Shown here piece by piece: positions 9,495-64,000 of a DNA stretch of 64,000 nucleotides. Source of the stretch: a virus; the IMG/VR virus record IMGVR_UViG_3300023184_000030, positions 108,850 through 172,849 of that record. One strand, written 5' to 3'. Under the pieces are notes generated by a model. It searched no databases. It saw only the letters and a program-made list of their open reading frames with translations, and was not told the origin of the DNA. A program made the position numbers and the translations under genes. Within the stretch, counting starts at the first letter, position 1; each line of letters begins with the position of its first letter.

Positions 9495-9500
9495 GTTTTT

Positions 9501-10061
9501 TTAATTAAAAAGTATATCTTCAAACATTGAGTCTATATTGCTCACTGATTGGTCGTCGAATTTATTTGTAAATGCCCATATCTTATGTAGTCCAGCTTCT
9601 TGAAACATTGATATTACTTTCTCATAAGTAGCTCTTTCCCTCGTGTCGCCATCTATATGATCCCACTGATCTTTACTTCTATCTGACTTGTCTGGATTTT
9701 CCCCATTTATATAAATGATAGTGATCTCGTGAAGAAGCGAGTATTTCTTCAATATCTCTATTTGATTCTTAGCTTCTTCCTCAGTTATTCTACCCTCGAG
9801 CAATCCCCACACTAAGACAGTTAATATTCCTCTGTCGTGTATGAACGATCCCTGAGGTATGTCTTTTGCTAACTGCATAAGCATAAATTCTTTGCCCAAT
9901 GAAAATGCATGGGCTTCTTTGCTATCCTCGCTTTTTAGATTTAGATCGCTAAAGAAATTAGCAAACTTAAACTGAAATCTTGGAATATGAAAATATTCTG
10001 AGATATGCTCAGATAAAAATGTCTTGCCTGAATTTCTTGGACCTTCAAATACGTATACCAT
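9501..10061 (-). CDS. P-loop (deoxy)nucleoside/nucleotide kinase-like protein
   Basis: From the ATG at 10061 the protein is 186 residues and starts MVYVFEGPRNSGKTFLSE, a Walker A loop (GPRNSGKT, residues 7-14) right after the first strand, as in thymidylate and deoxynucleoside kinases. An HDRGIL motif (the DR of the DRx signature) lies about 80 residues in, and an Arg-rich segment near the C-terminus (DTRERATYEK) could be the lid. A longer reading from a TTG at 10106 is possible but would begin inside the promoter's -7 box, so I chose the ATG. Its partner is asnB. The substrate is uncertain; nucleotide salvage is likely. Confidence 0.7.
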   Translation of the reverse strand: MVYVFEGPRNSGKTFLSEHISEYFHIPRFQFKFANFFSDLNLKSEDSKEAHAFSLGKEFMLMQLAKDIPQGSFIHDRGILTVLVWGLLEGRITEEEAKNQIEILKKYSLLHEITIIYINGENPDKSDRSKDQWDHIDGDTRERATYEKVISMFQEAGLHKIWAFTNKFDDQSVSNIDSMFEDILFN

Positions 10062-10103
10062 ATATTTCTTTCTATAGCGGAACACCACACATGTTCCACA
10101 TAG

Positions 10104-10140
10104 CAAATATAATAAATTAGTACGGAAAAAGCACGAAAAA
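10104..10140 (-). promoter_or_regulatory. early/middle promoter, Bacteroidota-type -7 box
   Basis: The minus strand has TATATTTG at 10111-10104 (matching TAnnTTTG), with CCG 19 nt upstream (10123-10125) and a T-run beyond. The same three parts with identical spacing occur at 23138, 29618 and 42847. It drives the kinase and asnB operon. The T-run region abuts the terminator of the preceding gene. Confidence 0.7.
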
Positions 10141-10168
10141 CCCCGATCTTTATTAGAATCGGGGTTTT
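10135..10168 (-). terminator. intrinsic terminator
   Basis: On the minus strand AACCCCGAT pairs with ATCGGGGTT (10158-10166 with 10139-10147), followed by a T-run. It lies directly after the stop of the 825-residue gene (10171) and ends the long late capsid unit before the early asnB promoter. Confidence 0.85.
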
Positions 10169-10170
10169 AT

Positions 10171-12648
10171 TTATTTTGCTTCAATATTAACGCATTTGAA
10201 AGGTGATTGCTGCGGTATCTCATCGAATGAAGTTGAATTCATTCTTTTGACATGCGTTGCTATGCTAGGATAAATGTCAGCAGCTATATAATAGCAGTTA
10301 TTACCTAGAATATTTTTTATTCCGCTATCAGATCCTTTCATGTTACCTAATATGCCAATTCCATCAAGCGAAGATGACATCTGCCTTTTGGATGTAGTTT
10401 TCTTTTTCTTAATATCATCATATTCTCCTACGATGATTTTAGATCCCTCATAAGTTAATAGGGGTCCGCTGTCTGAGTCATCTTCAGTTAGACCGAATAT
10501 ACTATCTTTAGATATTCTTTTAGCTGTAGAAGCGCCTAAAACATTATCATTGATCCATTTTATACAGCTTACGAATTTGCTTCCGTCAAAGGTAACACAG
10601 TTAGCTATCATTACAAGGAAGTTGTTAATAGCAACAAATTCCTCTTTACCTAAATCTGGACTTCTATCACTTTTTTGTAAAGCGATGTTAAAAGCTCTAG
10701 ATATGTCGCCCTTAAGATTATCGTAATCTATAAAAGGAATTTCTTTATTCTTGATAGACGATTCCATCATTTCAAAAGGTCCAGAAAGATCTAGATCATC
10801 GTTATCTGAATTTTTACTAATTAATTGTTTTATACCATCATATCTAAACTGGGGTCTAATCATACCGAACGTTGTCCAACCTTTAAGATAATTTCTAAGA
10901 AATTCAGTTGCGTCTTCGTTGCCTAATGTTTTAATTTGTCTAGCCTCTGTCCATTTGTTCCAGTTGCATGGGGTTTTTAATGATGATGATCCTAGGTTGA
11001 TATTATAAACTGCACCTTTAGAAAAGAAATATGAGAATTCTTCCGCTGGTTTAGCTTTATCTAAAGCTAGATTCCAATCTTTTATAAATTCTGTGCTGTA
11101 GGATGATTTAAGAGATCCATCCTGCTTAATAAAATCATCAGACTCTACTTTTATATTATATTCAGATCTAAGTTTTTTAGCTAATCCACGTACTCCTGAA
11201 GCTGATTTTGCATCAGATGATCCTGATGATTTTTCTGGAGATGCTACTGCTCCTTGAGCTTTATATTGAACAGCTAACTCCTTTTCAAAATCAGAATTGT
11301 TGATAGTGATTTTACCCTCATTAACACTAGAGAATAATTCAGAAATACTTTTAACATAACCCGAATTAGATGTGCTTTCATGCATTTTTGTTCCTATCGT
11401 ATGCAAAGCTGTATTGATAGCTTTTCTATTCTTATCTGAAACCCAATCTGAAGCAATTATATCAGTTAATAATGCTTGGTCTATCTGACCGCTTGCATTT
11501 TTATTACCTGATAATTTTTGGATAGTTGAGATAACAGAAGTTGTAGCTGGACCATATTTTCCATTAGGACCTCCTTTAGATTTTATCAGCTTACCTGCAG
11601 AAGTTATACCGTCACAAAGTGCAGTTTGAATAGCAAAGATTAATCCGCTTCCTTTTATCTTCTTATCAGAATCTGCATCCCCTCTTTTTAAAGGAAAAAT
11701 TGCTTTAGCAGTTTCCACTTCTTTAACCTCATTTTCATCCTTGATAACCTTAACAGCTATCCCGTACTGTGTCTTTGCTCTAGTCATAAGATCTAGTGCT
11801 TGATTAACTAAATTAGTAACGTCGGAATACGTTGTATAAACTTCTTCGTCATCCTCTAACTTTTGTAGAGATCTATTTGCTGTTTGAATCATAGTGTTGT
11901 TAAATTCTTCCTGAAATTTATCAACTTGCTTTTCTAATTCTTCAAGCATTTTTCTATTCTTGTCTCCACCATCTGTATTATCTAAAGCCTTTCTTTTCTC
12001 GTCAAGATCTAGAAATGTTCTTTTCCAATCTCTTCCATATCCTGATTTTTGATCTTTACCCTCGGAAGAACTTATTAGATTGGTAAGTAATTTTTTTAGA
12101 TTATCAACTCTTCTTTTATAACCAGTGAAAATAGATTCATTTAACATATCATCAGAATCAAATCCTTCGCTGTCATTTAGCTTCTTAGCTTCTTCTTCTG
12201 CTTGTTTAGCTATGTTGTCTATCGAATTCTGAAGTTTAGTTGTAGCCATCTTAAACTGCTTAAATATAACCTCATCTTTAGATTTAGAAATTTCTGAAGT
12301 TCTATCAAGTGCTTCAGCAAATTTATGTAAGCTCTCAAGATACAGTCTTTTAGCTTCTGCATATTTAGAATTTGCTAAATCATTATCGTCTGCATAGTCG
12401 ATCAATTTAGCGGTTAAAGATTTTACCGTTTTAGAACTTGCAACATCGGAAAGCTTAAGCCTGATAACATCTGGATTTCTATCCCTTTTTGGAGCCAAAT
12501 CAAAGGTTAATATCTTGAAAGCATTTAAAGCATTATCACAAACCTTAACAAGCAAAGAATCTACTTGTTCATTTTCTAATAGCCTAGTATAATATCCTTC
12601 CAATAGCTGTTTAGCTACCTGATTGTGGATGTATGGATTATTGTTCAT
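10171..12648 (-). CDS. large capsid-associated protein with peptidoglycan-binding-like domain
   Basis: An 825-residue, mostly helical, Lys/Asp-rich protein. Early residues carry possible protease sites (QLLEGYY, RLLENEQ), and near residue 173 there is DDMLNESIF, matching the L-N-E-S/A/G context of the major capsid and core proteins. Around residues 330-420 a segment (AIQTALC, then GKYGPATTSVISTIQKL, then ASGQIDQALLTDI) has the spacing of a PG_binding_1 domain. It shares an operon with three coiled-coil core proteins, transcribed from 15041 toward the terminator at 10135. I infer a packaged virion protein, perhaps ejected or acting on the cell wall during entry. No catalytic lysozyme motif was seen. 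Confidence 0.6.
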   Translation of the reverse strand: MNNNPYIHNQVAKQLLEGYYTRLLENEQVDSLLVKVCDNALNAFKILTFDLAPKRDRNPDVIRLKLSDVASSKTVKSLTAKLIDYADDNDLANSKYAEAKRLYLESLHKFAEALDRTSEISKSKDEVIFKQFKMATTKLQNSIDNIAKQAEEEAKKLNDSEGFDSDDMLNESIFTGYKRRVDNLKKLLTNLISSSEGKDQKSGYGRDWKRTFLDLDEKRKALDNTDGGDKNRKMLEELEKQVDKFQEEFNNTMIQTANRSLQKLEDDEEVYTTYSDVTNLVNQALDLMTRAKTQYGIAVKVIKDENEVKEVETAKAIFPLKRGDADSDKKIKGSGLIFAIQTALCDGITSAGKLIKSKGGPNGKYGPATTSVISTIQKLSGNKNASGQIDQALLTDIIASDWVSDKNRKAINTALHTIGTKMHESTSNSGYVKSISELFSSVNEGKITINNSDFEKELAVQYKAQGAVASPEKSSGSSDAKSASGVRGLAKKLRSEYNIKVESDDFIKQDGSLKSSYSTEFIKDWNLALDKAKPAEEFSYFFSKGAVYNINLGSSSLKTPCNWNKWTEARQIKTLGNEDATEFLRNYLKGWTTFGMIRPQFRYDGIKQLISKNSDNDDLDLSGPFEMMESSIKNKEIPFIDYDNLKGDISRAFNIALQKSDRSPDLGKEEFVAINNFLVMIANCVTFDGSKFVSCIKWINDNVLGASTAKRISKDSIFGLTEDDSDSGPLLTYEGSKIIVGEYDDIKKKKTTSKRQMSSSLDGIGILGNMKGSDSGIKNILGNNCYYIAADIYPSIATHVKRMNSTSFDEIPQQSPFKCVNIEAK

Positions 12649-34813: not shown

Positions 34814-37329
34814 TTTTTTTTTAAATCGTCTGCTTCGTCTAGGTTGTATCCCATTTCGTCATTTACTTCGAAATCAATATCACCTTCTGCTCCAGGAGCT
34901 TCAGCTAGATTCATAAATTTATCCAATGAAGTTACATGCTTTGTTTCTTTAGCATTTTTACCTTTTTCCGGTGCATCAGCTAAATTAGCATCTACACCTT
35001 CTCTGATATTATATCCTATTTCTTTGTTCTTTCCGTCTGCGTCTTCGCCTTCAAAGTCAGTTTTATCTTTAGTCTCTGGTGCTTTATCATCTAAAAGATC
35101 TTCACCTTCAACTTTAGCTTTTTCTTTCTTGTTGTTACCTGGTGCCTTAGCCATTGCATCTGCTTTAGCTTTAGCCTCATTTACAGTTATATTGTAACCG
35201 TGCATGTGATCTAATTCCATTTCGATCTCTCCACCTTCACCTTTAGGTGCTTTGGTAAATCCGTGTCCGTCTGCAAATGTTTTCAATAAAGCTTTTTGCT
35301 CTTCTTCGCTTAGTGCAGATTTATTTAGGTTTCTTGAAATCTCATCAGATTCTTTAACGTCACCGCCTTCTTCTTCGCCTTTAGCATCGTTATCAGAATT
35401 TTTTTCTGCCGCTTGACTTAGTGCTTCTTCTAGATCAGAGATTTCATTAACTAAGAAATCTGATGTTTTACCTGTGTCTAAAAGAATAGTGAATCTACCT
35501 GAAGATCCATCTACAGATATGATCTTTCCAGTTTCACCTGATTCTTTAACTTTAATATAATCACCAATGTTAAATTTCTCATCCTCAGATAGTGTTTCTA
35601 CATCGGGAGTGCTTTCAACTTTACCTAGTTCTATATTGATCTGATTCCATTTTTCTCTCAATACTGAAAGTTCATTATTAAGTAGGGAATGTGCAGATTT
35701 CATTTCTTTTGAAGCAGCATATAATGGATTGTTTTCCATTAAGCTCTCAACTTTATTGATTTGTTCTTCTACTCTAGAAATATTTTCTAATACTTTAGTT
35801 CTGTCATTAATCATGATAGACTTAAGTTTTTGCTCTCCGTCCAAAAATTCGGTTAATCCTTCAGAAATATCATATCTTAAGTAGTCCTTAACCATTTTAA
35901 CAGCTTGAGATCCATTTACTTTATAAATTGAATTCTCTCTCATTCCCTCATTAATCCTTTGAAGGTAGATTTCATTGTTCCATTTGATAAGGTTGATAGA
36001 TACACCTTCGTAAATATTAGAAGTTATATTCTTAGCAAAATCTAATTCAACGACATTAGAGAAGTTTACATAAAGATTAAGGATATCATTAACTACTTGA
36101 GATTCGTTAACAGCAAAATGAGATGCTGATTCTAATCCTAATACCTTACCTAATTCACCAACGCTTCTGAAGTTTAATTTTGATTTACCAAGATAAACAG
36201 ATACGCTTTCATTTTCTTCTACTAAACTAACGTATTTCTTACCTAATTGAATTAGAATACCATTTTCGTTAATTCTAACATAAGATCTAACTGATGCGTT
36301 TACCAATCCGATATAATCAGATGGAACTGAGCCAATTTCTTTAGTACTTAATTTCCTGAAAGATTCACCCTGTGCTTCAAATAGGCTGTTACCTATTGCA
36401 AAGATAGTCTTATCACCTTCGATTAATATTGGTGAGTAAATTCTACCTACTTTTGATTCTCCCTGAGCATTAACAGGAATTTCTAATTTTCTAGAATCAG
36501 CTGCTTCGTTAACATTAAGATAATTGATTAAATTTCTAACAACTGGATTGAAAGACCATTTAGTAATTTCTTTAGATAATAGACCAGAAGATTTACCTTC
36601 AGAAATTAACCAGTTGTTTAATGACTCGCTAAGCTCAGAATAGAAGCTATAGTTTCCACTTTGCTTGATAGATTCTAAAACTTTAGATACTTCGATTTCT
36701 CTAGAGAATTTAGTAGATTTCTCTTTTAATCCCTCGATCAAAGGTAAAACAGTAACGTCCCATTTGAATGATTCTAATTCAGCAATAAAGTTATTAATTA
36801 CTGCGAATTCAGGTACGTCTTTATTTGCGATGATATTTGCATATTGCTCGCAAACAATTTTAACCTTAGGGTATTCGTATATGGAAAGGCTTCTTAACTT
36901 GTTGATCGATTCTAAAACTCCTAGATTTTTTAATCCCTGAGCATCAACAAAAGATTTAGCACTATCGTCATGCGAAGCTAAATTGTTTAGGCTTTCCAAT
37001 AATGAATTGCTAGTATCTTCTTTCTTTTCTTCCTTATCTAAATAGGAACCAGAATTATTTAAAGATGCGTTAGCTTTTAGTCCTTTCCAGGATTCCATTA
37101 AAGATGATGCTGCTTTTTTAGAAGCCTCCATCTGTTCGCTCTTTATTGATTCCCAATGATTTTTTAATTCTGGGGTTGCTTCTACATTTGAAGCTTGCTC
37201 GTTAAGAGCGGCAAGAACTTGGCTTTCGCTCATTTCCGATGATCCGTTAAGATAGCTTTCGCATATCTGTCTAACATCTGGAGATTTTGTTAGTTCTTTC
37301 AATTTTTTAACTTGGTTTATAAAATCCAT
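34810..37329 (-). CDS. large virion/core-type protein with acidic repeat tail, 839 aa
   Basis: No known family. The N-terminal 60 residues contain possible protease sites (LAALNEQAS). The main body is mixed helix and strand, with many L-N-E/I-N-E triplets (YLNVNEAAD, VRINENG, QRINEGM). Around 605-655 FNIGDYIKVKESGETGKI begins a KOW/SH3-like barrel similar in style to that in 24119-24607. The last 140 residues are acidic and low-complexity, with three GYN-containing repeats. The gene has two late-type motifs upstream (37354, 37387) and ends at an A9 slippery site. High length, processing-like sites and location near head genes suggest a capsid-associated protein; this is inference. Confidence 0.65.
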   Translation of the reverse strand: MDFINQVKKLKELTKSPDVRQICESYLNGSSEMSESQVLAALNEQASNVEATPELKNHWESIKSEQMEASKKAASSLMESWKGLKANASLNNSGSYLDKEEKKEDTSNSLLESLNNLASHDDSAKSFVDAQGLKNLGVLESINKLRSLSIYEYPKVKIVCEQYANIIANKDVPEFAVINNFIAELESFKWDVTVLPLIEGLKEKSTKFSREIEVSKVLESIKQSGNYSFYSELSESLNNWLISEGKSSGLLSKEITKWSFNPVVRNLINYLNVNEAADSRKLEIPVNAQGESKVGRIYSPILIEGDKTIFAIGNSLFEAQGESFRKLSTKEIGSVPSDYIGLVNASVRSYVRINENGILIQLGKKYVSLVEENESVSVYLGKSKLNFRSVGELGKVLGLESASHFAVNESQVVNDILNLYVNFSNVVELDFAKNITSNIYEGVSINLIKWNNEIYLQRINEGMRENSIYKVNGSQAVKMVKDYLRYDISEGLTEFLDGEQKLKSIMINDRTKVLENISRVEEQINKVESLMENNPLYAASKEMKSAHSLLNNELSVLREKWNQINIELGKVESTPDVETLSEDEKFNIGDYIKVKESGETGKIISVDGSSGRFTILLDTGKTSDFLVNEISDLEEALSQAAEKNSDNDAKGEEEGGDVKESDEISRNLNKSALSEEEQKALLKTFADGHGFTKAPKGEGGEIEMELDHMHGYNITVNEAKAKADAMAKAPGNNKKEKAKVEGEDLLDDKAPETKDKTDFEGEDADGKNKEIGYNIREGVDANLADAPEKGKNAKETKHVTSLDKFMNLAEAPGAEGDIDFEVNDEMGYNLDEADDLKKN
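34813..35232 (-). repeat. three degenerate acidic repeats ending in GYN[I/L]
   Basis: In the C-terminal part of the 839-residue protein, an acidic strand precedes HGYNITVNEA (residue 710), IGYNIREGV (771) and MGYNLDEAD (826), spaced 61 and 55 residues apart with Ala/Pro/Lys-rich linkers. They look like short binding motifs on a flexible tail. Confidence 0.75.
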
Positions 37330-37353
37330 GGTCTTTTGTTTTTTTAATCTTTT

Positions 37354-37361
37354 TATATATC
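37354..37361 (-). promoter_or_regulatory. late promoter element GATATATA
   Basis: The minus strand reads CATGGATATATAAAAAGATT, 25-32 nt upstream of the ATG at 37329. A second, weaker copy (AATATATAG) lies at 37387-37394. Confidence 0.6.
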
Positions 37362-37413
37362 CATGTTATGGATAGAAACTTTTTACTATATATTTAAACT
37401 ATGTAGCATTTTA

Positions 37414-37899
37414 TCACTTACAGACTAAGATTTCTAATTTAATATCTATGTCAGCATGTGTATTACAGAAAACTATGCCTCCCAGATCCGAATATACCCC
37501 AGGCTTAGATAAAAGCCATCCTTCGTAAATTGAATCAGTAGCTGATATTCTTTTTCCAGAAAGCACCATTAATTCACCCATATAGTAGGTGTTTCCTAAA
37601 TAAGTCCATTCTAGGTATTTTCTTGATTCTACTGTAGTTGAAGGAAATACAGCTTTTACCCCTATGAATGAAACATATCCGAGATCATCACCAATATCGG
37701 TTTGTTCCAGTAAAAAGCACTTTCCTGCTTTTAAAGTAACCCTACTTTTACTAAAAGATACTGTTTCTTCTAAAAGATCCTTCATATCCAAGTAAATGGG
37801 TAGCTTCATGCTATTACCCTCATCTAACACAAGGCTTCCTCGATAAAATCTGAATCCCGTTCCTTCATCATACGGGCATGTTATTGGTTTAGTTGCCAT
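37414..37899 (-). CDS. small virion-type protein, paralog of next upstream gene, 161 aa
   Basis: A beta-rich protein with no known family. The central block WTYLGNTYYMGELMVLSGKR corresponds to WDYKGNTRNIMGKFMVLTGA in the 224-residue protein encoded just upstream (37904-38578), and both end with a predicted strand (IKLEILVCK versus VKLTIITAN). The two are therefore paralogs that have diverged widely. Separated by four bases, they are surely co-transcribed. Beta-rich fold, lack of motifs and position near core and tail genes would suit decoration, neck or fibre-attachment proteins, but I cannot choose among these. Confidence 0.6.
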   Translation of the reverse strand: MATKPITCPYDEGTGFRFYRGSLVLDEGNSMKLPIYLDMKDLLEETVSFSKSRVTLKAGKCFLLEQTDIGDDLGYVSFIGVKAVFPSTTVESRKYLEWTYLGNTYYMGELMVLSGKRISATDSIYEGWLLSKPGVYSDLGGIVFCNTHADIDIKLEILVCK

Positions 37900-55806: not shown

Positions 55807-56988
55807 TTAGACTTCTTTAGAAGCCCATTCGATAACTGATTGAAATACACGTTCTGGCGTTATTGATTTGGTACATTCAAAATGTCTATCTGTATCCTTG
55901 TGCTCCGGACACCACCACCAATCGCCTTTATCGAACTTATGCTCAACTTTATTGAAGCAGCCATGACAAACATCTTTGTTTATTATACGAAGAGTTTTAT
56001 CAGAAAATTCGCAAAATGGCTGGCTAAAACCTGATATCATAACAACAGGAACGTCCAGTCCCCAAGATAGCCAAGAAAGGCCAGAGCTAACTCCGACAAA
56101 GAATTCGCAATTAATTATATCGCTCATTGTGTCTTCTATCGGTCTATCTCCAGTTCTATCAATCACATTTGAAAAATGATTTCCCTGCTTATGAATTATA
56201 ACAACTTCATATCCTATATTTTTAAATAGATCGATAAGCTGTTGCCACCCACCAGGATAGTTCCAATGCTTTGCAGCAGCAGTAGATTCTGTTCCTATAC
56301 AGATGTATTTTTTATCGGATGGTTTTTCCTTTATTGTTTTCTTTAATCTCGGTCTGATCTCACCTACGTACTCAAGGCCTAACATATCCGATGCAACTTT
56401 CTGAAGTGGACATAATCTAGGATCAACTTTATGGTAATTGATATCCGTTTCCTGATACCAGCCAATACCTAATAAGACGTCAATATTATCTTCTCTGTAT
56501 CCTGGATGTTTGAATTTGAGAACATCGTACTGTCCTTCGAATAAATGATTCCAAAAAGTGGTAATGGTTATATCTGAACAGTTATGAACTTCAGCAAATC
56601 TATTAACATAAGGTACCCAAGCTAAGGTGTCTCCGAGAGAACTGCTTTCTAAAGCAATTATTACTTTACCTGATCTTATCTTTTTAAGCAGATTAAATTC
56701 ATGAACCTGATCACCGTTCTTGTCATAAACGAATATAGTTATATCATCGATCCATCTTCGGTATGCGTAGCAGAAATGCCCAGTGATTATCTGACTAGAA
56801 AATATAACAGAACCTGTTGCATCTTTTATATGTACTGTATATGGTTCAAGATTAAAATCACCAAAGTCTATCGTTACTTTAGGTGATTGATCAAACTGTG
56901 TCCTTATCTTTACCTTATGCTTGAATATAGGGTAATCTGACTTTTTTATGTCATCATAGATAGCTATTGATTCCTTGTGTATCTGCAT
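55807..56988 (-). CDS. TibC/BAHT-like heptosyltransferase with four-cysteine metal finger
   Basis: A 393-residue GT-B glycosyltransferase. After an N-terminal beta-rich domain (about 1-105), the GT-B part begins VIIALESSSLGDTLAWVPYV, with IGWYQETDINYHKVDPRLCP and a nucleotide-sugar site region CIGTESTAAAKHWNYPGGWQ, then FFVGVSSGLSWLSWGL. Near the C-terminus four Cys (341, 344, 360, 372) lie in VCHGCFNKVEHKFDKGDWWW-C and HFEC, the arrangement of the iron finger of TibC/Aah autotransporter heptosyltransferases. Those enzymes add heptose to Ser of bacterial adhesins. In a phage late operon beside fibre genes, a virion protein is a likelier target (inference). Confidence 0.82.
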   Translation of the reverse strand: MQIHKESIAIYDDIKKSDYPIFKHKVKIRTQFDQSPKVTIDFGDFNLEPYTVHIKDATGSVIFSSQIITGHFCYAYRRWIDDITIFVYDKNGDQVHEFNLLKKIRSGKVIIALESSSLGDTLAWVPYVNRFAEVHNCSDITITTFWNHLFEGQYDVLKFKHPGYREDNIDVLLGIGWYQETDINYHKVDPRLCPLQKVASDMLGLEYVGEIRPRLKKTIKEKPSDKKYICIGTESTAAAKHWNYPGGWQQLIDLFKNIGYEVVIIHKQGNHFSNVIDRTGDRPIEDTMSDIINCEFFVGVSSGLSWLSWGLDVPVVMISGFSQPFCEFSDKTLRIINKDVCHGCFNKVEHKFDKGDWWWCPEHKDTDRHFECTKSITPERVFQSVIEWASKEV

Positions 56989-56991
56989 TAA

Positions 56992-57954
56992 TTATTTATT
57001 TTTTTTAATAAACCCGAGGATTTCTAAAATCTTATAAACATTCTTCGAATCATCATCGGTCATATAATGAGCATTCTCATTGTTATTATATGAATCCGAA
57101 TATGTTGGTAAATTTCTAAATAGTACTGGGGTCTTCCAGGAAAGGGATTCCTTTATACATAGTGGATTCAATTCTACAATTGAATTAAATACAAATAGAT
57201 CTGCAGCCTGATAGAATGTATCAACATCATTTCTTTCGCCCCAAATAGTACAATTTCCAGGTAATTCATCCATTAAGGGTTTCCAGTAGTCTTCAAAATT
57301 AGAAGCTTGATTCCCGATGAAGTGAAATTGGATAGGGAAATACTCAAGAAGTTTAGCGTACTTAATAAGTTCTCCCTGATTTTTACCAGAAGTAAATAAA
57401 CCAACATTTATAACATGCTTCTTTGAAGGATTAAGCCCAAGATAGACAAGAGAATTATTCTTGTCTGGTTTTTTATTTTCAATCGGATATTCTAGAAGTT
57501 CGCTGGGAATTCCTAGAATTTTAAATTTTTCGTCTATCCATTTAGAAACCATAACAAACTTATCTGGTTTATAAATTTTAATACTAGGATCAAATTGTGA
57601 ACTATGACAGCTTTCGCATATAACATAATCCCTTTCAGTTCGGTAAACGTTTCTTAGGACTTCCGTATCGACAAATGTTTCAGGGAGCTCCTCAAAGTGT
57701 ATCACATCGGGTTTTACGTTTTCTATTATTTCGATCAGCCTTTTCTTATTGTCACCAAGGGGTATAAATCTATCTCCAAGAATCGATATTACTTTATTTC
57801 TTTGGACAACATAGGCATCTCCATAGAAATTATACTCCACACAGTATATCTCAGCTGAATCATTTAATGACTCTATCTTCTTTAGCAGATACTGTGGGAG
57901 TCCTCCGGTGGAAAAATGGGGCGAAACATAAAGTATCTTCCTTCTATTTTCCAT
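56992..57954 (-). CDS. GT-B (GT4-like) glycosyltransferase
   Basis: A 320-residue protein. It starts MENRRKILYVSPHFSTGGLP then QYLLKKIESL, the usual opening of GT4 enzymes; PDVIHFEELPETF is the acceptor-side strand. The donor domain has HVINVGLFTSGKNQGELIKY and ends with AADLFVFNSIVELNPLCIKE, where the Glu-rich E-x7-E type motif (ELNPLCIKESLSW) binds the sugar nucleotide. It is second-last in the cassette, four bases from the TibC-like gene, so they are co-expressed. Sugar and acceptor are unknown. GT4 enzymes often act on a sugar already placed by another transferase. Confidence 0.85.
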   Translation of the reverse strand: MENRRKILYVSPHFSTGGLPQYLLKKIESLNDSAEIYCVEYNFYGDAYVVQRNKVISILGDRFIPLGDNKKRLIEIIENVKPDVIHFEELPETFVDTEVLRNVYRTERDYVICESCHSSQFDPSIKIYKPDKFVMVSKWIDEKFKILGIPSELLEYPIENKKPDKNNSLVYLGLNPSKKHVINVGLFTSGKNQGELIKYAKLLEYFPIQFHFIGNQASNFEDYWKPLMDELPGNCTIWGERNDVDTFYQAADLFVFNSIVELNPLCIKESLSWKTPVLFRNLPTYSDSYNNNENAHYMTDDDSKNVYKILEILGFIKKNK

Positions 57955-57962
57955 ATTAAGTA

Positions 57963-58238
57963 CTATGCTTCTTTTGTGAATATTCCGCTTTCGAAATCAA
58001 GTTTTCCGTGACCGAATTGATCAGTTACTTTTTTCTGTAAATCTGATTCTCTTAAAGAGATATCTTCTGCATAATCATAAAGAGATTTAATCTCAGATTC
58101 GATAATTTCTAAATCCTTTCTGTGAAATGCTGCTTCGATGTTAAGCCTTCCTACTCTAACAACGTTTGCTGTTAATTCATCTCTTAATTTTTGGATCTCC
58201 ATTAGGAGTTCTTCTGGTAATTTAATTTGTTCTGACAT
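57963..58238 (-). CDS. hypothetical coiled-coil protein in the glycosylation cassette, 91 aa
   Basis: A short helical protein: LPEELLMEIQKLRDELTANV then HRKDLEIIESEIKSLYDYAE and a C-terminal FGHGKLDFESGIFTKEA. Heptad pattern over about 60 residues. No family recognised. It sits inside the glycosyltransferase cassette with 9- and 14-base gaps, so it may be an accessory or simply carried along. Codon and base composition look like its neighbours. Confidence 0.6.
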   Translation of the reverse strand: MSEQIKLPEELLMEIQKLRDELTANVVRVGRLNIEAAFHRKDLEIIESEIKSLYDYAEDISLRESDLQKKVTDQFGHGKLDFESGIFTKEA

Positions 58239-58252
58239 ATTCTTTTTTTATT

Positions 58253-59458
58253 TTATAATGATGGTCCCTTGACCGATGTTAATATTTTAGTCTCAATAGG
58301 GGCATTTTGTTCTATATTTTCCTCTATTATTTTTGTTTTTATTAGGGCTTTCCCATGAAGTTGTCTTACGTAATCACCGGTGTCATAATATGCTGAATTA
58401 TATAAAAGAAAGCTTCTAAACGGAAATGGATTTTTTCTCTTTGGATTTAAGAGTCTTTCTGTACACTCCAGCATAGAATCATAATCCTCCACGCATTCAA
58501 ATGTTTCTGCCATCCACATGATGTGTTCATTTCTCTCATAGCAAAACTGCTCTGCATGGCGATAGTGATGTATTGACGATTCATAATCTCCAATAAATCT
58601 GTAAGCATATCCCATTAAGCAAAGTGCAAGATAGGACATCTCATTGGGGAGATGTCCGATTTTTTTATTTGCCCATCCGTTGTTTACATTCAAATATTGC
58701 TCAAAATAAAATATACATCTTCTCGCGTACTCGTCCGCGTGATCCTTCTTGAAAGGAAATTCTGAATAATTTCCATAGCAATCGGAATAGCTCTTGCCCA
58801 AATACCAAAGGTGATACATGTCATTAAGTATCTTACCGTTTGCAACCTGATCTATTTCAAGTTCCAAAGCATCCCTAAGAAATTTTGTAGGGGAGTTCCA
58901 CGTTTGCCCGTCATTAGTTATGATGTGTCTAAATGATCTAGGTAAATTTACTCTCTGAAACCCCTCGTTATCATTACCGTATCCTTGAAGCAATATAACT
59001 TCATGTCTTTTATCATGTTTGAAGCTCCATGGTAATTTAGAATTCCATAGCCATGTTCTAAAATATATGCTACCCCCAGAATCCGCAGTTATATTAAAAC
59101 TTTGGATATTTGTATTTTCTAATAATCTCCAATCGAAATCACTGTCAACTGCCAGCTGCTCATCAGCATCCATTCTAAGAATCCAGTCGCATCCGTGATC
59201 TGAACTCAAACATGTTTGAAGTGCATGATCTCTATTGAACCCCGGATATTCCCATTTGGTCTCATATAAGAATCCCGGGATTCCTTTTTCACCCATGAAT
59301 CCTCTTATCAGATCCTGTGTCCCGTCAGTTGATCCATTATCCTGTATAACCCAATAATCAACATACATGTAGCAAGATTCGAGCATTCTTAAAATGATCT
59401 TTGCCTCATTAGCAACCATAGCATTTAAGCATATCTTACTTCTCCCTTTCATATACAT
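58253..59458 (-). CDS. GT2 family glycosyltransferase with helical C-terminal domain
   Basis: A 401-residue protein. GT-A domain residues about 1-230: KICLNAMVANEAKIILRMLE, then WVIQDNGSTDGTQDLI (the D-x-G-S-T-D-G-T loop) and CDWILRMDADEQL, containing the metal-binding DAD. The C-terminal 150 residues are helical, TPR-like (YLALCLMGYAYRFIGDYESS, IHHYRHAEQFCYERNEHIMW), a layout also known in peptide S/O-glycosyltransferases such as SunS and in other protein-targeting GT2 enzymes. This favours a protein acceptor, which is inference. It overlaps the upstream GT2 gene by 23 bases. Confidence 0.87.
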   Translation of the reverse strand: MYMKGRSKICLNAMVANEAKIILRMLESCYMYVDYWVIQDNGSTDGTQDLIRGFMGEKGIPGFLYETKWEYPGFNRDHALQTCLSSDHGCDWILRMDADEQLAVDSDFDWRLLENTNIQSFNITADSGGSIYFRTWLWNSKLPWSFKHDKRHEVILLQGYGNDNEGFQRVNLPRSFRHIITNDGQTWNSPTKFLRDALELEIDQVANGKILNDMYHLWYLGKSYSDCYGNYSEFPFKKDHADEYARRCIFYFEQYLNVNNGWANKKIGHLPNEMSYLALCLMGYAYRFIGDYESSIHHYRHAEQFCYERNEHIMWMAETFECVEDYDSMLECTERLLNPKRKNPFPFRSFLLYNSAYYDTGDYVRQLHGKALIKTKIIEENIEQNAPIETKILTSVKGPSL

Positions 59459-60698
59459 AGTTTAAGTAACATTCATCCACGCCAAATTTAAGTCTATCAA
59501 ATCCAGAATTCTGTAATCTCGGACTAGTTTTAGTCTCATTATCCCAATCCCAATCAATTCCTCCGATATCTAATATTCTTTGGTGTATTCTTTCGTTATA
59601 GTGATCCCTGATTAGTCTAGCTCTTCTATTTATATCAATAGAATTATTGCTTGTAGTGGTGTTTTTATCGCTGTACTGGAGATATAACATCTCTTTTATA
59701 TGTAACATTCGGGTATTGAGAAAAGTCCTTATAATGAGCTCAAAATCATCCGCTACAGGAAATCTAATATTATGTCCACCTATCTTCAGATAAACGTCTC
59801 TGCGCCAAATTCTAGCGTGATTTGGCATTCCTATATTAAATCTTATTGTTCTCGGATTTATATCCGCTGTATGGTGAGCTAAATATTCTTTACCGTCGGC
59901 AACTACCATGCTGTGACCAGCATATCCCCAACAATAAGTGTTATCGTGTCGTCCGTACCAATCACCAGATCTATCATTATCATAGCTTTTAAATTCTCCA
60001 TCATCATAAAGCTCACAGCAATCTGTGTATATGAATCCAGCATCTTTATAAATACTAGAAGCATTATAACAGATTTCTAGACAGTTACTAATTAAAGCAT
60101 CATCATGATCTAACTCAAGAAGCCATTCACCTTCACATAGCATAGCTGCTCTATGTTTAACCAGCCCTATATTCCCATTACTGATGGGGAGTATCCGGTG
60201 AATTCTAATTCTGAAATCTTTCTTCGCTAGCTCATTTAGATATCTCCACGTTACATCCCAACTAGAATCATCTACTATAACCCATTCCCAATCCTGCATT
60301 GTTTGCGATTTTAGGCTATCGTACATGCGATCTATCTTGGTACTACTGGTATTATATGTTGGTGTAAATATAGAGAATTTAGGCTTGGATAACAAGCAAT
60401 TTCTAAAGGTTGATTGCACAACTATATCATTTGCTAAAACGTTACCTGGCATCTGTGAATTATACACAAAGCTTATTTCACGAAGCCTAGCATCGTTAAC
60501 GTTTATCTGTTCTTCAATAGATATTATAAGATCAGGCTTATATAATGAATAATCCGCTATAACAGTGTCATTATAAACTAGAGAATATATAACGACCTCA
60601 TCAAATAGACCTTCCTCATAATAGATATCCGATTGAAGATTTATGGTTCCCTTTGTAGGCCAGCCATAAACAATTGCACTGGGTTTTCTTGTTTGCAT
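59436..60698 (-). CDS. GT2 family glycosyltransferase with N-terminal extension
   Basis: A 420-residue protein. The first 105 residues are a separate alpha/beta domain of unknown type (AIVYGWPTKGTINLQSDIYY). The GT-A domain follows: KFSIFTPTYNTSSTKIDRMY, WVIVDDSSWDVTWRYL and EWLLELDHDDALI, with DHDD as the DxD-type metal site. RIWRRDVYLKIGGHNIRFPV then DDFELIIR is the usual acceptor-side GGH/ED motif. The C-terminus, about 80 residues, is charged. First glycosyltransferase after the oxygenase gene, sharing one base with it (TAATG-type junction). Confidence 0.87.
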   Translation of the reverse strand: MQTRKPSAIVYGWPTKGTINLQSDIYYEEGLFDEVVIYSLVYNDTVIADYSLYKPDLIISIEEQINVNDARLREISFVYNSQMPGNVLANDIVVQSTFRNCLLSKPKFSIFTPTYNTSSTKIDRMYDSLKSQTMQDWEWVIVDDSSWDVTWRYLNELAKKDFRIRIHRILPISNGNIGLVKHRAAMLCEGEWLLELDHDDALISNCLEICYNASSIYKDAGFIYTDCCELYDDGEFKSYDNDRSGDWYGRHDNTYCWGYAGHSMVVADGKEYLAHHTADINPRTIRFNIGMPNHARIWRRDVYLKIGGHNIRFPVADDFELIIRTFLNTRMLHIKEMLYLQYSDKNTTTSNNSIDINRRARLIRDHYNERIHQRILDIGGIDWDWDNETKTSPRLQNSGFDRLKFGVDECYLNYVYEREK

Positions 60699-61276
60699 TA
60701 TCTCTCTGTATTAAAAAAGAATAATTGGAATAGTCTTCCGTTTTCTTTACAGTCGCCAAAGTAGTCTAGGGAGACGTGGAATAGATCACCCCGATAAAGG
60801 GCAAGTCTATTATAAACGTTTCCTATCTTATCTACCATCTCCCATTTGGTGTAGTCTTGAGAATATTTATTGTGAATGGCATTTGCATTCTCCTCCTCCG
60901 TGTGCTCGTCATTTTTCCAATTACGAAGACCATTTTCTTTAAGCTTAAATAATCCTGTTCCCGATGAAAGTGGTGCATCTGGGGTTAGATAAATAATACC
61001 AGCCCAATTTGTAGTGTAATCTGAATGTATCCACGATCTATCAGATGCTAACGTGTATTGAAAAGCACCAGTTGAATCATCTCCCCACCATGTAACGCTT
61101 CCTGCAAAAGGCCTGATTATATCCTCGATCAACACCTTAGCGCTATCGGTGATAAAGGATGCTGTTCTTTGCCCAGGATAGTTTCCCCTTGAGCTAAATT
61201 CTTGACTAAGAGCAAAAGCTCTAACGTCGTCAACATTATTATAAAAATCATCAACTATTAAACTCTGTACTCTCAT
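60698..61276 (-). CDS. 2OG-Fe(II) oxygenase-like protein
   Basis: A 192-residue protein with a double-stranded beta-helix oxygenase pattern. Fe ligands are His84 and Asp86 (SWIHSDYTTN) and His167 (GDLFHVSLDYFG), and Arg181 (NGRLFQLFFF) is the likely 2-oxoglutarate ligand. Gly-x-R near the start (YPGQRTAS) is common in the DUF6445-type branch of this superfamily. Such enzymes hydroxylate amino acids, small molecules or nucleic acids. It is the first gene of the glycosylation cassette and is followed immediately by four glycosyltransferases; hydroxylation of a fibre residue before sugar addition is a possible role, as in collagen modification, but unproven. Confidence 0.78.
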   Translation of the reverse strand: MRVQSLIVDDFYNNVDDVRAFALSQEFSSRGNYPGQRTASFITDSAKVLIEDIIRPFAGSVTWWGDDSTGAFQYTLASDRSWIHSDYTTNWAGIIYLTPDAPLSSGTGLFKLKENGLRNWKNDEHTEEENANAIHNKYSQDYTKWEMVDKIGNVYNRLALYRGDLFHVSLDYFGDCKENGRLFQLFFFNTER

Positions 61277-61356
61277 AATCTAATTTATAGATTATATTAA
61301 AATGTTTGGTTTAAGTTCCAGAAAGATTACTACGGGATAGCAGTCTGGGGTCATTT

Positions 61357-61394
61357 AAAAAATTAAATCCCTATTGAAAGGGATTTAATTTTAT
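61357..61394 (-). terminator. intrinsic terminator after the LamG fibre gene
   Basis: A 14-bp perfect stem (61359-61372 with 61379-61392), flanked by A-rich and T-rich tracts, 19 bases past the stop at 61413. It separates the fibre genes from the glycosylation cassette, which therefore may have its own promoter; none was clear to me. Confidence 0.9.
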
Positions 61395-61412
61395 TTTGAA
61401 AGGTATTTAATT

Positions 61413-62606
61413 TTAGTAAATAGATTGTGTTTTAGTGTAAATATCCCTAGTCTGAGCTTCAGTTAGAAGGCCTGTGTATATATGAAGAGCACCGATCCTT
61501 CCGTCTACGAAAGTACCAGCTACTGGTCCTAAACCAAATAAGCTACATCCAATATAAGAGGTAGTAACGCCACCAGTATTAAAGTTACCCGTTGCGTAGA
61601 ATGGGTAATCACCAGTTTGTATAGCGGCACCATCCAGAGAGGATTTAATGTTTCCTGTTGGGCTCAGTCCATCTATTGTTAATACCAGATTATGCCAAGC
61701 TCCAAATGAAACTCCAGTATATAATCTTGTACTAGTTATGTTGTTTCCAGCTCCTTGTTGTTGTGGATCACCATCATAAAACATTTCTCCAGAACTGTTA
61801 ATGTATATTCTGCTCCAAATATCAGTAGCTGGTCCAGTTATACTATTACCAGATGCTGAACTAGTTAATTGAAAAAGAGTTGCTATTTGGCCCCCCGCTG
61901 GAGCTGTTACTTTAAACCAGATACTAATAGTCATTCCTTCAGCATTGTTTAAGGCATTGACTGGGTCAAATGAAATATAATCGTTACTAGATGAGGTAAA
62001 AACCATGGCATTCTTATTAGTAGAATCCCAATATGTTGAACTCTGTAAAGAACCAGTAGTTCCTGTATACCCACTTAAATCATAAATTGCAGTTCCAGTG
62101 AAAGGATAAGATGCCATAAAAGAAGGATCATATGCTGCTACTAATGGGGTAGCTGTGTTGTATGATATTCCCGGATAATCCCTGTTTACAGGAAGATATT
62201 TATTCTGACCTATTAACCATGTTATAGCTTGATCGTATGTTGTGTGTTTGGTTACCGGGGACATACCAGGAAGTCTGTTTATCGTGTTGAGTATGTCTGT
62301 TGTAGTACTGCCGGTAATACCCCAGCCTACCGCAACGTTTGTTGAAGGACTGTAGCCTTGGCTAGTCTCATCGGAATAGATTGCATAAACAACATTTGTG
62401 TTGTTTGATCCGTTTGCAGTTGCTCCGATGTCGATACCATTTCTCCATTCAGTACCTCCGTATCCTCCACTGAAGTTTGGAAAATCGCTAGCTACTGATC
62501 CAGGATAAGCTAAACCTAAAGCTACTGAAGAATAACTTGGGATTAGTGCTCCTGCTAACTGTGAAGCGTTTTTAGGTGCTACTGAGCTTATGTTATTTAT
62601 TGCCAT
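61413..62606 (-). CDS. tail fibre/adhesin with LamG (concanavalin-like) domain
   Basis: A 397-residue Gly/Ser/Thr-rich protein. The C-terminal 230 residues form a LamG-type beta sandwich: MVFTSSSNDYISFDPVNALN, MTISIWFKVTAPAGG, then SFGAWHNLVLTIDGLSPTG, IKSSLDGAAI and IGALHIYTGLLTEAQTRDIY, the standard end. LamG modules in phage fibres bind glycans on the host surface. The N-terminal 150 residues (SSVAPKNASQLAGALIPSYS onward) probably attach it to the virion or another fibre. It has its own late element (62631) and terminator (61357), so it is a single-gene unit between the collagen-like fibre and the glycosylation genes. Confidence 0.8.
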   Translation of the reverse strand: MAINNISSVAPKNASQLAGALIPSYSSVALGLAYPGSVASDFPNFSGGYGGTEWRNGIDIGATANGSNNTNVVYAIYSDETSQGYSPSTNVAVGWGITGSTTTDILNTINRLPGMSPVTKHTTYDQAITWLIGQNKYLPVNRDYPGISYNTATPLVAAYDPSFMASYPFTGTAIYDLSGYTGTTGSLQSSTYWDSTNKNAMVFTSSSNDYISFDPVNALNNAEGMTISIWFKVTAPAGGQIATLFQLTSSASGNSITGPATDIWSRIYINSSGEMFYDGDPQQQGAGNNITSTRLYTGVSFGAWHNLVLTIDGLSPTGNIKSSLDGAAIQTGDYPFYATGNFNTGGVTTSYIGCSLFGLGPVAGTFVDGRIGALHIYTGLLTEAQTRDIYTKTQSIY

Positions 62607-62630
62607 TTGTTTTTATGATTATTTTTATAC

Positions 62631-62638
62631 TATATATT
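62631..62638 (-). promoter_or_regulatory. late promoter element AATATATA
   Basis: The minus strand reads AGTAAATATATAGTATAAAA, 25-32 nt upstream of the ATG at 62606, overlapping the stop codon of the fibre gene by one base. Confidence 0.5.
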
Positions 62639-64000
62639 TACTTTTTCTTAAGTTCTTTGAGCTCTGCAGAAAGTTCTTTGATAGCTTCTATTAATAACGG
62701 AACGATCTTCTCGTACTTAACCCCTTTGAAGCCACTATCTCTTGTAGTAACAACCTCAGGTAGAACTGATTCTATTTCCTGTGCTATAACTCCAACGTCA
62801 TGACCTTCAAATCCGTGATGATGCTTATGCTCTAGTTTCCAATCGAACTCATATCCTGAGATAGACTCGACTTTACTTAATGCGTCCGAAATTTTAACGA
62901 AGTTTTCTTTTAAATTTCTATCGGAAGTTGAGAATGCAACCACGTCATTCTGAGCATCGATTCTACCGGAAACGCCGGCGTGAGTAGTGATAGTACCAAC
63001 TTCTAAAGCTGTTGCTACGATTATACCCCCGTTTGCTAGAGTATCTTGTTTAATATCAGAATTTCCTAAAGTAGATGCGCCGGTCCAATAAGCAATCTTA
63101 GGTGTACTACCTCCTGATAAACCACCACCTGCTGCTCCTTGTGCTCCTTGTACCCCCGAGGTTCCTGAAGAACCGGATCTACCTGATGATCCTGCTGATC
63201 CCGCAGATCCTGAAGTTCCACTTGTTCCTGCTGAACCCGATGCACCTTGCGCTCCTTGAAGACCCGATGTTCCAGATGCTCCGTTAACACCAGGTAATCC
63301 TTGTGCCCCTTGTGCTCCAGAAGAACCAGATGATCCAGAAGAACCATTACCTCCTGGAGCTCCTTGAGATCCAGTTAATCCTGATGTTCCTGAAGATCCA
63401 TTTTTACCGGAGGTTCCTGCTGATCCTGCTGATCCTGAAGTACCTGATGTACCGCTGGTTCCTGAAGTTCCGCTGGTTCCTGAGGTTCCGCTGGTTCCTG
63501 AGGTTCCGCTAGTTCCTGCTGATCCTGATGTACCTGATGTACCGCTAGTTCCTGAAGTTCCGCTAGTTCCTGCTGATCCGGAGGTACCCGAAGTACCTGA
63601 CGTACCACTAGTTCCCGAAGTACCTGATGATCCTGAAGTACCACTAGTTCCTGAAGTTCCACTAGTTCCTGCTGATCCTGAAGTTCCTGAGGTACCACTA
63701 GTTCCTGAAGTTCCACTAGTTCCTGCTGATCCTGAAGTTCCAGAAGTTCCTGATGTACCACTAGTTCCTGAAGTTCCACTAGTTCCTGCTGATCCTGAAG
63801 TTCCTGAGGTACCACTAGTTCCAGAAGTACCTGCTGATCCTGAAGTTCCAGAAGTTCCTGATGTACCACTAGTTCCTGAAGTTCCACTAGTTCCTGCTGA
63901 TCCTGAAGTTCCACTAGTTCCTGCTGATCCTGAAGTTCCAGAAGTACCTGAGGTACCACTAGTTCCAGAAGTACCTGCTGATCCTGAAGTTCCAGAAGTA
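62638..64000 (-). CDS. collagen-like tail fibre with S74 intramolecular chaperone, 5' end beyond window
   Basis: The minus-strand frame ending at 62638 is open to the right edge, at least 453 codons. From the edge it encodes about 290 residues of Gly-x-y triplets, mostly GTS and GSA, closing with GVQGAQGAAGGG. A spacer of about 60 residues follows (STPKIAYWTGASTLGNSDIK), then the Peptidase_S74 domain: STSDRNLKENFVKISDALSK, GYEFDWKLEHKHH, GVIAQEIESVLPEV and KYEKIVPLLIEAIKE, typical of self-cleaving trimerisation chaperones of fibres and endosialidases. A GTG-initiated short frame at 62943 covers only the chaperone and is not the real start. The Ser/Thr-rich collagen stretch is a plausible substrate for the cassette downstream. 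Confidence 0.9.
   Translation of the reverse strand, partial: TSGTSGSAGTSGTSGTSGTSGTSGSAGTSGTSGSAGTSGTSGTSGTSGTSGTSGSAGTSGTSGTSGTSGSAGTSGTSGTSGTSGTSGTSGSAGTSGTSGTSGTSGTSGSAGTSGTSGTSGTSGSSGTSGTSGTSGTSGTSGSAGTSGTSGTSGTSGTSGSAGTSGTSGTSGTSGTSGTSGTSGTSGTSGSAGSAGTSGKNGSSGTSGLTGSQGAPGGNGSSGSSGSSGAQGAQGLPGVNGASGTSGLQGAQGASGSAGTSGTSGSAGSAGSSGRSGSSGTSGVQGAQGAAGGGLSGGSTPKIAYWTGASTLGNSDIKQDTLANGGIIVATALEVGTITTHAGVSGRIDAQNDVVAFSTSDRNLKENFVKISDALSKVESISGYEFDWKLEHKHHHGFEGHDVGVIAQEIESVLPEVVTTRDSGFKGVKYEKIVPLLIEAIKELSAELKELKKK
63121..64000 (-). repeat. tandem 9-bp units encoding collagen-like Gly-x-y repeats
   Basis: About 290 consecutive codons with Gly at every third position. Ser and Thr fill nearly all other positions near the right edge (GTSGTSGSA), with more Gln, Ala, Asn and Pro near the left end. 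The DNA is a highly repetitive array of TCCTGAAGT and TCCACTAGT units on the plus strand. It continues beyond the window. Confidence 0.97.

Follow-up and report, generated by a model that had tools for sequence, protein, structure and literature searches.

The 3′ end of the 172,849-base virus record IMGVR_UViG_3300023184_000030 (IMG/VR), a 64,000-nucleotide stretch at record positions 108850-172849 that is referred to here as the window, closes with a run of minus-strand genes (window positions 55807-64000, Table 1) in which four predicted glycosyltransferases and a 2-oxoglutarate (2OG)-Fe(II) oxygenase-like protein lie beside a collagen-like tail fibre. This cassette is probably a virion self-glycosylation module that decorates the phage's own fibre: its lead enzyme belongs to the TibC family, and phage genes of this family recur beside genes for serine-rich, collagen-like proteins. 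The original prediction, made from the sequence alone, had placed the gene set at these positions, which was borne out by an open reading frame check.

The lead enzyme had been described as TibC-like, and this identity is upheld by the NCBIfam profile TIGR04414 (257 bits, with a curated cut-off of 200) and by a fold match. Its best sequence match in the Protein Data Bank (PDB) is TibC itself (4rap, E 8.9e-50), and its predicted model (pLDDT 88) matches the TibC structures 4rb4 and 4rap with a Z score of 38.7 and a root-mean-square deviation of 2.0 over 357 residues (model residues 25-393), covering the whole-length TibC fold including the N-terminal barrel, compared with Z scores of 21.4 for the next GT9 enzyme and 18.6-19.9 for the lipopolysaccharide (LPS) heptosyltransferases I and II. 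In TibC, Asp110 serves as the base, the donor is bound by Thr226, Lys230 and Trp305, its adenine is contacted by Arg286, and iron is held by four cysteines (PMC4358343). The equivalents of the first four residues in the window enzyme are D120, T236, K240 and W306, and the iron-finger cysteines are present as C341, C344, C360 and C372. Across 52 phage cluster representatives (clustered at 70% identity), Asp110, Trp305 and the four cysteines are kept in all 52 and Lys230 in 51, so the window enzyme looks active and protein-directed. Its likely partner is a GT4 glycosyltransferase, a homologue of which is encoded immediately upstream of 41 of the 55 stand-alone (300-420 amino acids) phage TibC genes, counted without dereplication.

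The predicted target lies at the other end of the gene cluster. In the fibre, a chaperone domain accompanies a long Gly-X-Y run, as expected of a collagen-like tail fibre, and the earlier description of its shaft as rich in Ser and Thr is accurate: Gly is in phase in 98 of 99 triplets, Ser and Thr together fill 77% of the X and Y positions, and Ser occupies Y in 68 of the 99 triplets. The assembled part of the shaft contains 2 Pro and 1 Lys over these 99 triplets. Its 58 Gly-Thr-Ser (GTS) triplets are encoded by 18 different 9-mers, which shows that recent DNA slippage is not the sole source of the repeat. The 5′ part of the gene is cut off by the end of the record, which places the N-terminus outside the assembled sequence.

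That the fibre is the target of the cassette had been proposed in the original prediction together with a survey of related phages for co-occurrence, and such a survey now argues for it. Scanning viral records with a diverse TibC alignment gave at least 572 confirmed relatives, of which the best 80 were examined in addition to those found in the other samples; counts over the 83 viral TibC loci are without dereplication. From the bacterial scan the best 80 of 141 were used. A Gly-X-Y run of at least 30 residues was present in the flanking DNA examined at 61 of the 83 phage loci as opposed to 8 of the 80 bacterial loci, and six of these eight (L095-L099, L111) form the phage-branch set considered below. 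When counted by cluster, loci retrieved by a TibC match were available for 39 of the 52 phage clusters, and with the locus of longest shaft chosen for each, 29 of the 39 had a Gly-X-Y gene in the flank examined (median gap 2.35 kb), which lay on the TibC strand in 24. The Gly-X-Y gene was Ser/Thr-rich (at least 65% Ser/Thr at X and Y) in 27 of the 29 TibC clusters versus 10 of 110 random Gly-X-Y phage loci (Fisher p 2.6e-18, clusters taken as independent), the random set being 120 loci minus 9 without a defined run and 1 with TibC nearby.

The association was also seen when sampling began from the fibre. GTS-fibre and any-composition Gly-X-Y loci were drawn, among the matches listed, by DNA-pattern scans blind to TibC, and whole records were then searched for TibC, with 100 loci taken from each set (of 119 GTS and 120 random Gly-X-Y loci). 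Of the 100 GTS-fibre records, 30 carried TibC (29 with scores over the cut-off), versus 1 of 91 Ser/Thr-poor records, a group that includes 7 loci without a run as defined, and in records of at least 40 kb the counts were 25/47 versus 1/28 (p 4.6e-6). Within the any-composition sample TibC occurred in 4 of 100 records, namely 3 of the 9 that were Ser/Thr-rich and 1 of the 91 others (p 0.002), and a terminase family, used as a control for record size, showed no enrichment with GTS fibres (8/50 versus 14/50). GTS fibres are thus often found without TibC in the same record, and TibC is rare in records with other types of collagen.

The composition of the shafts points to a particular acceptor position. 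The median fraction of Ser at Y was 0.77 in TibC-linked shafts versus 0.02 in random ones, that of Thr at Y was 0.01 versus 0.12, and that of Pro at X was 0 versus 0.20; the medians for Lys and Pro at Y were both 0 in TibC-linked shafts. Where Ser/Thr-rich shafts have Thr at Y (L396, L422, L435, L440, L480), their records were not among the TibC-positive ones. This excess of Ser over Thr fits the preference reported for TibC, which was found to modify serines and no threonines (PMC4358343).

A phylogeny of 75 representatives sets the phage enzymes apart, as 49 of the 52 phage rows and five rows labelled bacterial form one branch (support 100/95) that is separate from a canonical branch of 17 bacterial rows (support 100/100). 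The target repeat of the known autotransporters (TIGR04415) was found in 20 of 20 sampled genomes whose membership of the canonical branch was checked; none of 25 phage records had it, nor did any of 3 genomes in which a phage-branch enzyme is chromosomal. The loci for this test (23 of the 80 bacterial and 25 of the 83 viral) were picked by hand. An autotransporter-type repeat as target was also rejected for the window enzyme itself, since its own, incomplete record has no TIGR04415 match. Conversely, Ser/Thr-rich Gly-X-Y genes were present at 6 of 6 bacterial-labelled phage-branch loci versus 0 of 74 canonical loci. Three of the six are on bacterial chromosomes (L095, L096, L097), and the others are short bacterial-labelled contigs that may be phage (L098, L099, L111). 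On the chromosomes, proteins with GSS/GTS repeats of the GTSGSSG type are encoded ~1 kb (L096:7905-11077, L097:8578-11107) or 5 kb (L095:3405-11161) from the TibC gene, and L096 and L097 share a similar gene (DUF6502 in L096) between the two.

Phage TibC homologues as such are already on record, as BFVD has an entry named 'Glycosyltransferase Aah/TibC [uncultured Caudovirales phage]'. A cultured example is the Microcystis phage Mel-JY01 (PP395634.1), in which a gene with a TibC domain 43% identical to that of the window starts 1.7 kb past a 1016-amino acid open frame full of GTSGSSG repeats. This plus-strand frame (L009:2-3052) has long GTS/GSS collagen-like repeats, and two opposite-strand genes are annotated over most of it in the record, so a fibre gene seems to have been missed in the annotation.

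Among the syntenic relatives of the window, the signal is the composition of the shaft and not the presence of a collagen-like gene. For a set of 54 syntenic loci, fetched with the neighbouring 829-amino acid gene as anchor, relatives without TibC in the equivalent slot mostly had shafts of Gly-Pro-Thr (GPT) type, or no shaft in the DNA examined, and since these GPT-type shafts stand at the same place, the idea that any collagen-like gene accounts for the link within the clade was dropped. Shafts with Ser at Y were present in 10 of 15 records with TibC versus 0 of 12 without a TibC match; the other five TibC records comprise four GAQ-type shafts, in phages that carry the 2OG and GT2 genes, and one GPT-type shaft. 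Two relatives with GSS-type shafts and no TibC in the slot, L357 and L391, have TibC elsewhere in their records, and the only match in each is of the same type as a second copy in the window's record, which has an N-terminal GT4-like domain.

This second copy is the C-terminal part of a GT4-TibC fusion near the opposite record end (record positions 8253-10604; TIGR04414 223 bits, with the N-terminal GT4 match below the Pfam cut-off). It groups elsewhere in the tree, with two phage rows and, with weaker support, the short 'bacterial' contig L111. Adjoining it is a fusion of GT4 and an FkbM methyltransferase (record 10608-12542).

In several relatives the slot between fibre and coiled-coil genes holds sulfotransferase, APS-kinase-like and CTP_transf_like genes (L188:3263-5763, on the same contig as L366, and L357, L391, L358 and L046:6035-8655), in some cases with FkbM as well; these assignments were confirmed by Pfam in L188 and made with home-made profiles in the others. 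These genes are perhaps a fibre sulfation module that occurs alone or, in L046, together with TibC. Locus L046 also encodes a fibre-like protein of NTAVG-type repeats (L046:2-3208) and has no collagen-like run within ~10 kb on either side.

Several observations weigh against fibre glycosylation by the TibC-family enzyme. The position of Arg286 is Thr287 in the window enzyme and Met in the second copy; an Ala mutant of this residue in TibC had its activity abolished or largely diminished (PMC4358343), and the position is Arg in 22 of 23 bacterial versus 23 of 52 phage cluster representatives. The identity of the sugar as heptose is therefore uncertain, and ADP-heptose is a doubtful donor to predict for this enzyme, in which the residue linked to stereoselectivity is Ser, as in AAH, where TibC has Pro. 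A phage-borne supply of ADP-heptose was set aside, as neither rfaE domain II nor SIS_2 had a match in the phage's own, incomplete record. Related phages with the cassette and no Ser/Thr-rich fibre, which the original prediction had named as a refuting case, exist as a minority: 10 of the 39 clusters had no Gly-X-Y gene in the flank examined, four of them (L046, L061, L011, L053) with ~9-10 kb examined on each side, and five phages with the full cassette (L344, L347, L349, L359, L049) have GAQ-rich shafts with few Y-position Ser, at least in the assembled part. For the cluster test, each cluster was represented by its longest shaft, and among the 110 random loci three (L437, L473, L495) sit in TibC-carrying records. 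Of the GTS-fibre records, 70 of 100, and 22 of 47 at 40 kb or more, lack TibC, and these records may be fragments. The comparison within the any-composition sample is not significant at 20 kb or more (p 0.21) or at 40 kb or more (p 0.19), and the terminase control addresses record size, not phage lineage. Within the syntenic clade, the 12 shaft-bearing records without a TibC match are mostly short (7.5-75 kb), so that absence of TibC from them is weak evidence, and a test of independent pairs was not significant, with 1-2 independent changes only, so that the clade by itself says little.

From these patterns we infer a scheme for acceptor, position, timing and benefit. Within the cytoplasm of the host, and probably at a late stage of infection, the TibC-family enzyme and its GT4 partner would transfer sugar to serines of the phage's own fibre shaft; the Ser at Y of Gly-X-Ser triplets is the likely acceptor. 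The GT4 enzyme probably extends or primes the glycan, and the two GT2 enzymes and the 2OG oxygenase would provide optional tailoring. A sugar coat may stabilise a proline-poor triple helix, block proteases or alter fibre binding. A broader proposal, which we advance tentatively and hold to be somewhat more likely wrong than right, is that the branch carried mostly by phages switched from β-helical adhesins to collagen-like proteins and glycosylates the Y-position Ser of proline-free Gly-X-Ser repeats with a donor altered in about half of the phage members, that the sugar replaces proline or hydroxyproline in the triple helix, and that phages repeatedly swapped GPT-type shafts for sugar-coated GSS/GTS-type ones.

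The foremost alternative is that the cassette modifies host surface glycans (LPS or capsule) against superinfection and lies near the fibre through a shared role in host interaction. Glycosyltransferases encoded close to phage tail fibres are commonly explained in this way (PMC7029224; PMC10202952 names it as one possibility), and polysaccharides are often built by GT2 and GT4 enzymes of this kind. We regard it as unlikely, however, because the TibC family modifies protein and the fold of the lead enzyme is far closer to TibC than to LPS heptosyltransferases I and II, and because surface modification does not predict a link to collagen-like shafts with Ser at Y or the same link in chromosomal relatives.

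The enzyme might instead glycosylate mainly some other part of the virion, for example the LamG-like protein, a different tail fibre or a baseplate protein. The conserved 829-amino acid gene, followed by the terminase gene, lies 52 bases beyond the cassette with no strong hairpin between, and some TibC phages have no collagen-like gene nearby, including L046 with its NTAVG-type repeat protein. Shaft composition nevertheless tracks TibC in both phage and bacterial loci, collagen-like shafts being the only ones compared systematically, which makes a different main acceptor quite improbable.

We give little credence to the view that TibC and GTS-type fibres are both merely common in one pool of large phages with no functional tie. 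The non-significant pairs test is in keeping with such hitch-hiking, and the nearest terminase relatives include Bacteroidota phages, so that one host group may dominate; the link nevertheless recurs in several architectures across 29 clusters (70% identity), is also seen on three bacterial chromosomes and in one cyanobacterial phage that has been cultured, and the apparent exceptions L357 and L391 carry TibC elsewhere. T4-like phages are known to glycosylate modified DNA bases, yet such a role is scarcely credible here, as the lead enzyme is TibC-like and, in agreement with the original prediction, searches of Pfam and NCBIfam at E values up to 0.1 linked no glycosyltransferase of the cassette to a family of DNA glucosyltransferases.

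Table 1. Features of the fibre and glycosylation gene cluster (window positions)
Feature	Position	Strand	Basis
TibC-family GT9, predicted protein O-glycosyltransferase, core enzyme	55807..56988	-	TIGR04414, 4rap match, fold, kept residues
GT4 glycosyltransferase, core partner of the TibC-like enzyme	56992..57954	-	Glycos_transf_1 E 1.4e-11
91-amino acid coiled-coil protein, syntenic phage gene, probably not glycosylation-specific	57963..58238	-	
GT2 glycosyltransferase (GT2a), apparently optional accessory	58253..59458	-	Glyco_tranf_2_4 E 1.1e-6
GT2 glycosyltransferase (GT2b), apparently optional accessory	59436..60698	-	Glycos_transf_2 E 1.1e-14
2OG-Fe(II) oxygenase-like protein (DUF6445), apparently optional accessory	60698..61276	-	Pfam E 4.7e-11; H84-x-D86...H167...R181
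Intrinsic terminator hairpin	61359..61392	-	-16.4 kcal/mol, z -5.1, 0/200 shuffles as stable
397-amino acid protein resembling LamG by eye, encoded second in the fibre unit	61413..62606	-	Open reading frame
Collagen-like tail fibre gene, 5′ part missing	62638..64000	-	Collagen E 5.9e-41, Peptidase_S74 E 1.1e-14, PHROG tail fibre families
Peptidase_S74 intramolecular chaperone domain of fibre	62746..62925	-	Residues 359-418, Pfam
Gly-X-Y shaft, 99 triplets, mainly Gly-Thr-Ser and Gly-Ser-Ala; proposed acceptor region	63103..63993	-	Residues 3-299

The remaining genes of the cassette appear to have a looser tie to TibC. An HxD...H metal triad followed by a 2OG-binding Arg is the hallmark of 2OG-Fe(II) oxygenases, and the window protein keeps all four residues. 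Its predicted model (pLDDT 79.7, 14 sequences) matches the double-stranded β-helix of OGFOD1 (E 7.6e-6, TM score 0.58), a PDB sequence search with it gave no match, and it also matches phrog_1644, a PHROG family labelled 'minor coat protein', which conflicts with the oxygenase fold. The proposal that this protein hydroxylates the collagen-like shaft ahead of glycosylation is not supported: the shaft is nearly devoid of Pro and Lys, a 2OG homologue is present at 17 of the 83 TibC loci (and a GT2a homologue at 14, some loci being cut off), and the metal triad is lost in 2 of 14 aligned homologues. Hydroxylation as a required first step was rejected on account of the scarcity of Pro and Lys and the optional nature of the gene, and action as a collagen-type hydroxylase is unlikely here; the protein may act on the sugar or elsewhere. 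The two homologues that lack the triad (L048:2138-2722, L051:7406-7981) are still beside TibC and perhaps have a non-catalytic role. Both the 2OG gene and the two GT2 genes appear to be optional. The coiled-coil protein, which had been counted as part of the system, probably does not belong to it, as 51 of the 130 loci that encode it (not dereplicated; 29 of the 51 being distant homologues) have no TibC in the DNA examined. Of the earlier interpretation, the TibC identity and the fibre as likely target are supported, collagen-type hydroxylation is not, the coiled coil is probably no part of the system, and heptose is uncertain.

In the direction of transcription, the genes are ordered as fibre, 397-amino acid protein, terminator hairpin, 2OG protein, the two GT2 enzymes, coiled-coil protein, GT4 and TibC-like GT9; these are followed by the 829-amino acid gene, which is conserved in relatives, a large terminase gene, and a 1116-amino acid gene whose product is taken, by eye, for a tail sheath. 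The terminator that had been claimed beside the cassette is real and stands between it and the fibre unit, as a 14-base-pair stem followed by U's, which a consensus terminator scan did not pick up. The 397-amino acid gene, omitted from the earlier gene list, had no match in Pfam or PHROG and has homologues at the equivalent position in some relatives. A search for related DNA in phage records returned short pieces only. Elsewhere in the record, a further gene (36337-37602) is 36% identical to GT2a over 92 residues, and three neighbouring proteins of 523-667 amino acids (67512-72890) have 33-residue Gly-X-Y stretches. In two relatives (L014:5769-9366, L015:9284-12881) the terminase, intact in the window, is broken after ~166 codons and followed by two other frames of 379 and 643 amino acids, which may reflect an intron or some other inserted element.

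Where glycosyltransferases are encoded close to phage fibres, they are usually ascribed to DNA protection or to changes in the host surface (PMC10202952, PMC7029224), and self-glycosylation of the fibre offers another explanation for many such enzymes that can be put to the test, given at least 572 viral TibC relatives. If it is correct, sugar-coated fibres would occur in many phages, the acceptor code (Ser at Y) may be readable from sequence, and the new enzyme branch could be used in E. coli to glycosylate proteins of collagen type. A further consequence would concern how collagen sequences without proline can be stable. Phage Mel-JY01 has a named host and carries both TibC and a GTS-type shaft.

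An open-access literature search found no report linking TibC-type enzymes to phage fibres, and the proposed system shares features with several that are known. Like the collagens of mimivirus and BclA of Bacillus, it pairs a Gly-X-Y repeat protein with glycosyltransferases encoded in the same genome; mimivirus collagens use lysyl hydroxylation, in contrast to a window shaft with a single Lys and two Pro and an enzyme that is TibC-like. As is thought for mycobacteriophages, the phage would glycosylate its own virion proteins, but in mycobacteriophages this is done by other enzymes on capsid or tail targets, and we know of no collagen-like fibre in those systems. Pelagimyophages also have glycosyltransferases beside myophage tail fibre genes, but these differ in being ascribed to changes in the host LPS O-chain, with GT8 as the commonest family (PMC7029224). 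The closest relation is to the TibC/AAH enzymes, the bacterial autotransporter heptosyltransferases (BAHT; PDB 4rap, 4rb4; PMC4358343), with which the window enzyme shares its profile, its fold, the catalytic Asp, Lys and Trp and the iron-finger Cys. It differs from them in its separate branch, in Thr in place of Arg286, in a Ser that follows AAH and not the Pro of TibC, and in its setting, since its record, as far as assembled, yielded no autotransporter target repeats and its gene cluster adjoins a collagen-like fibre.

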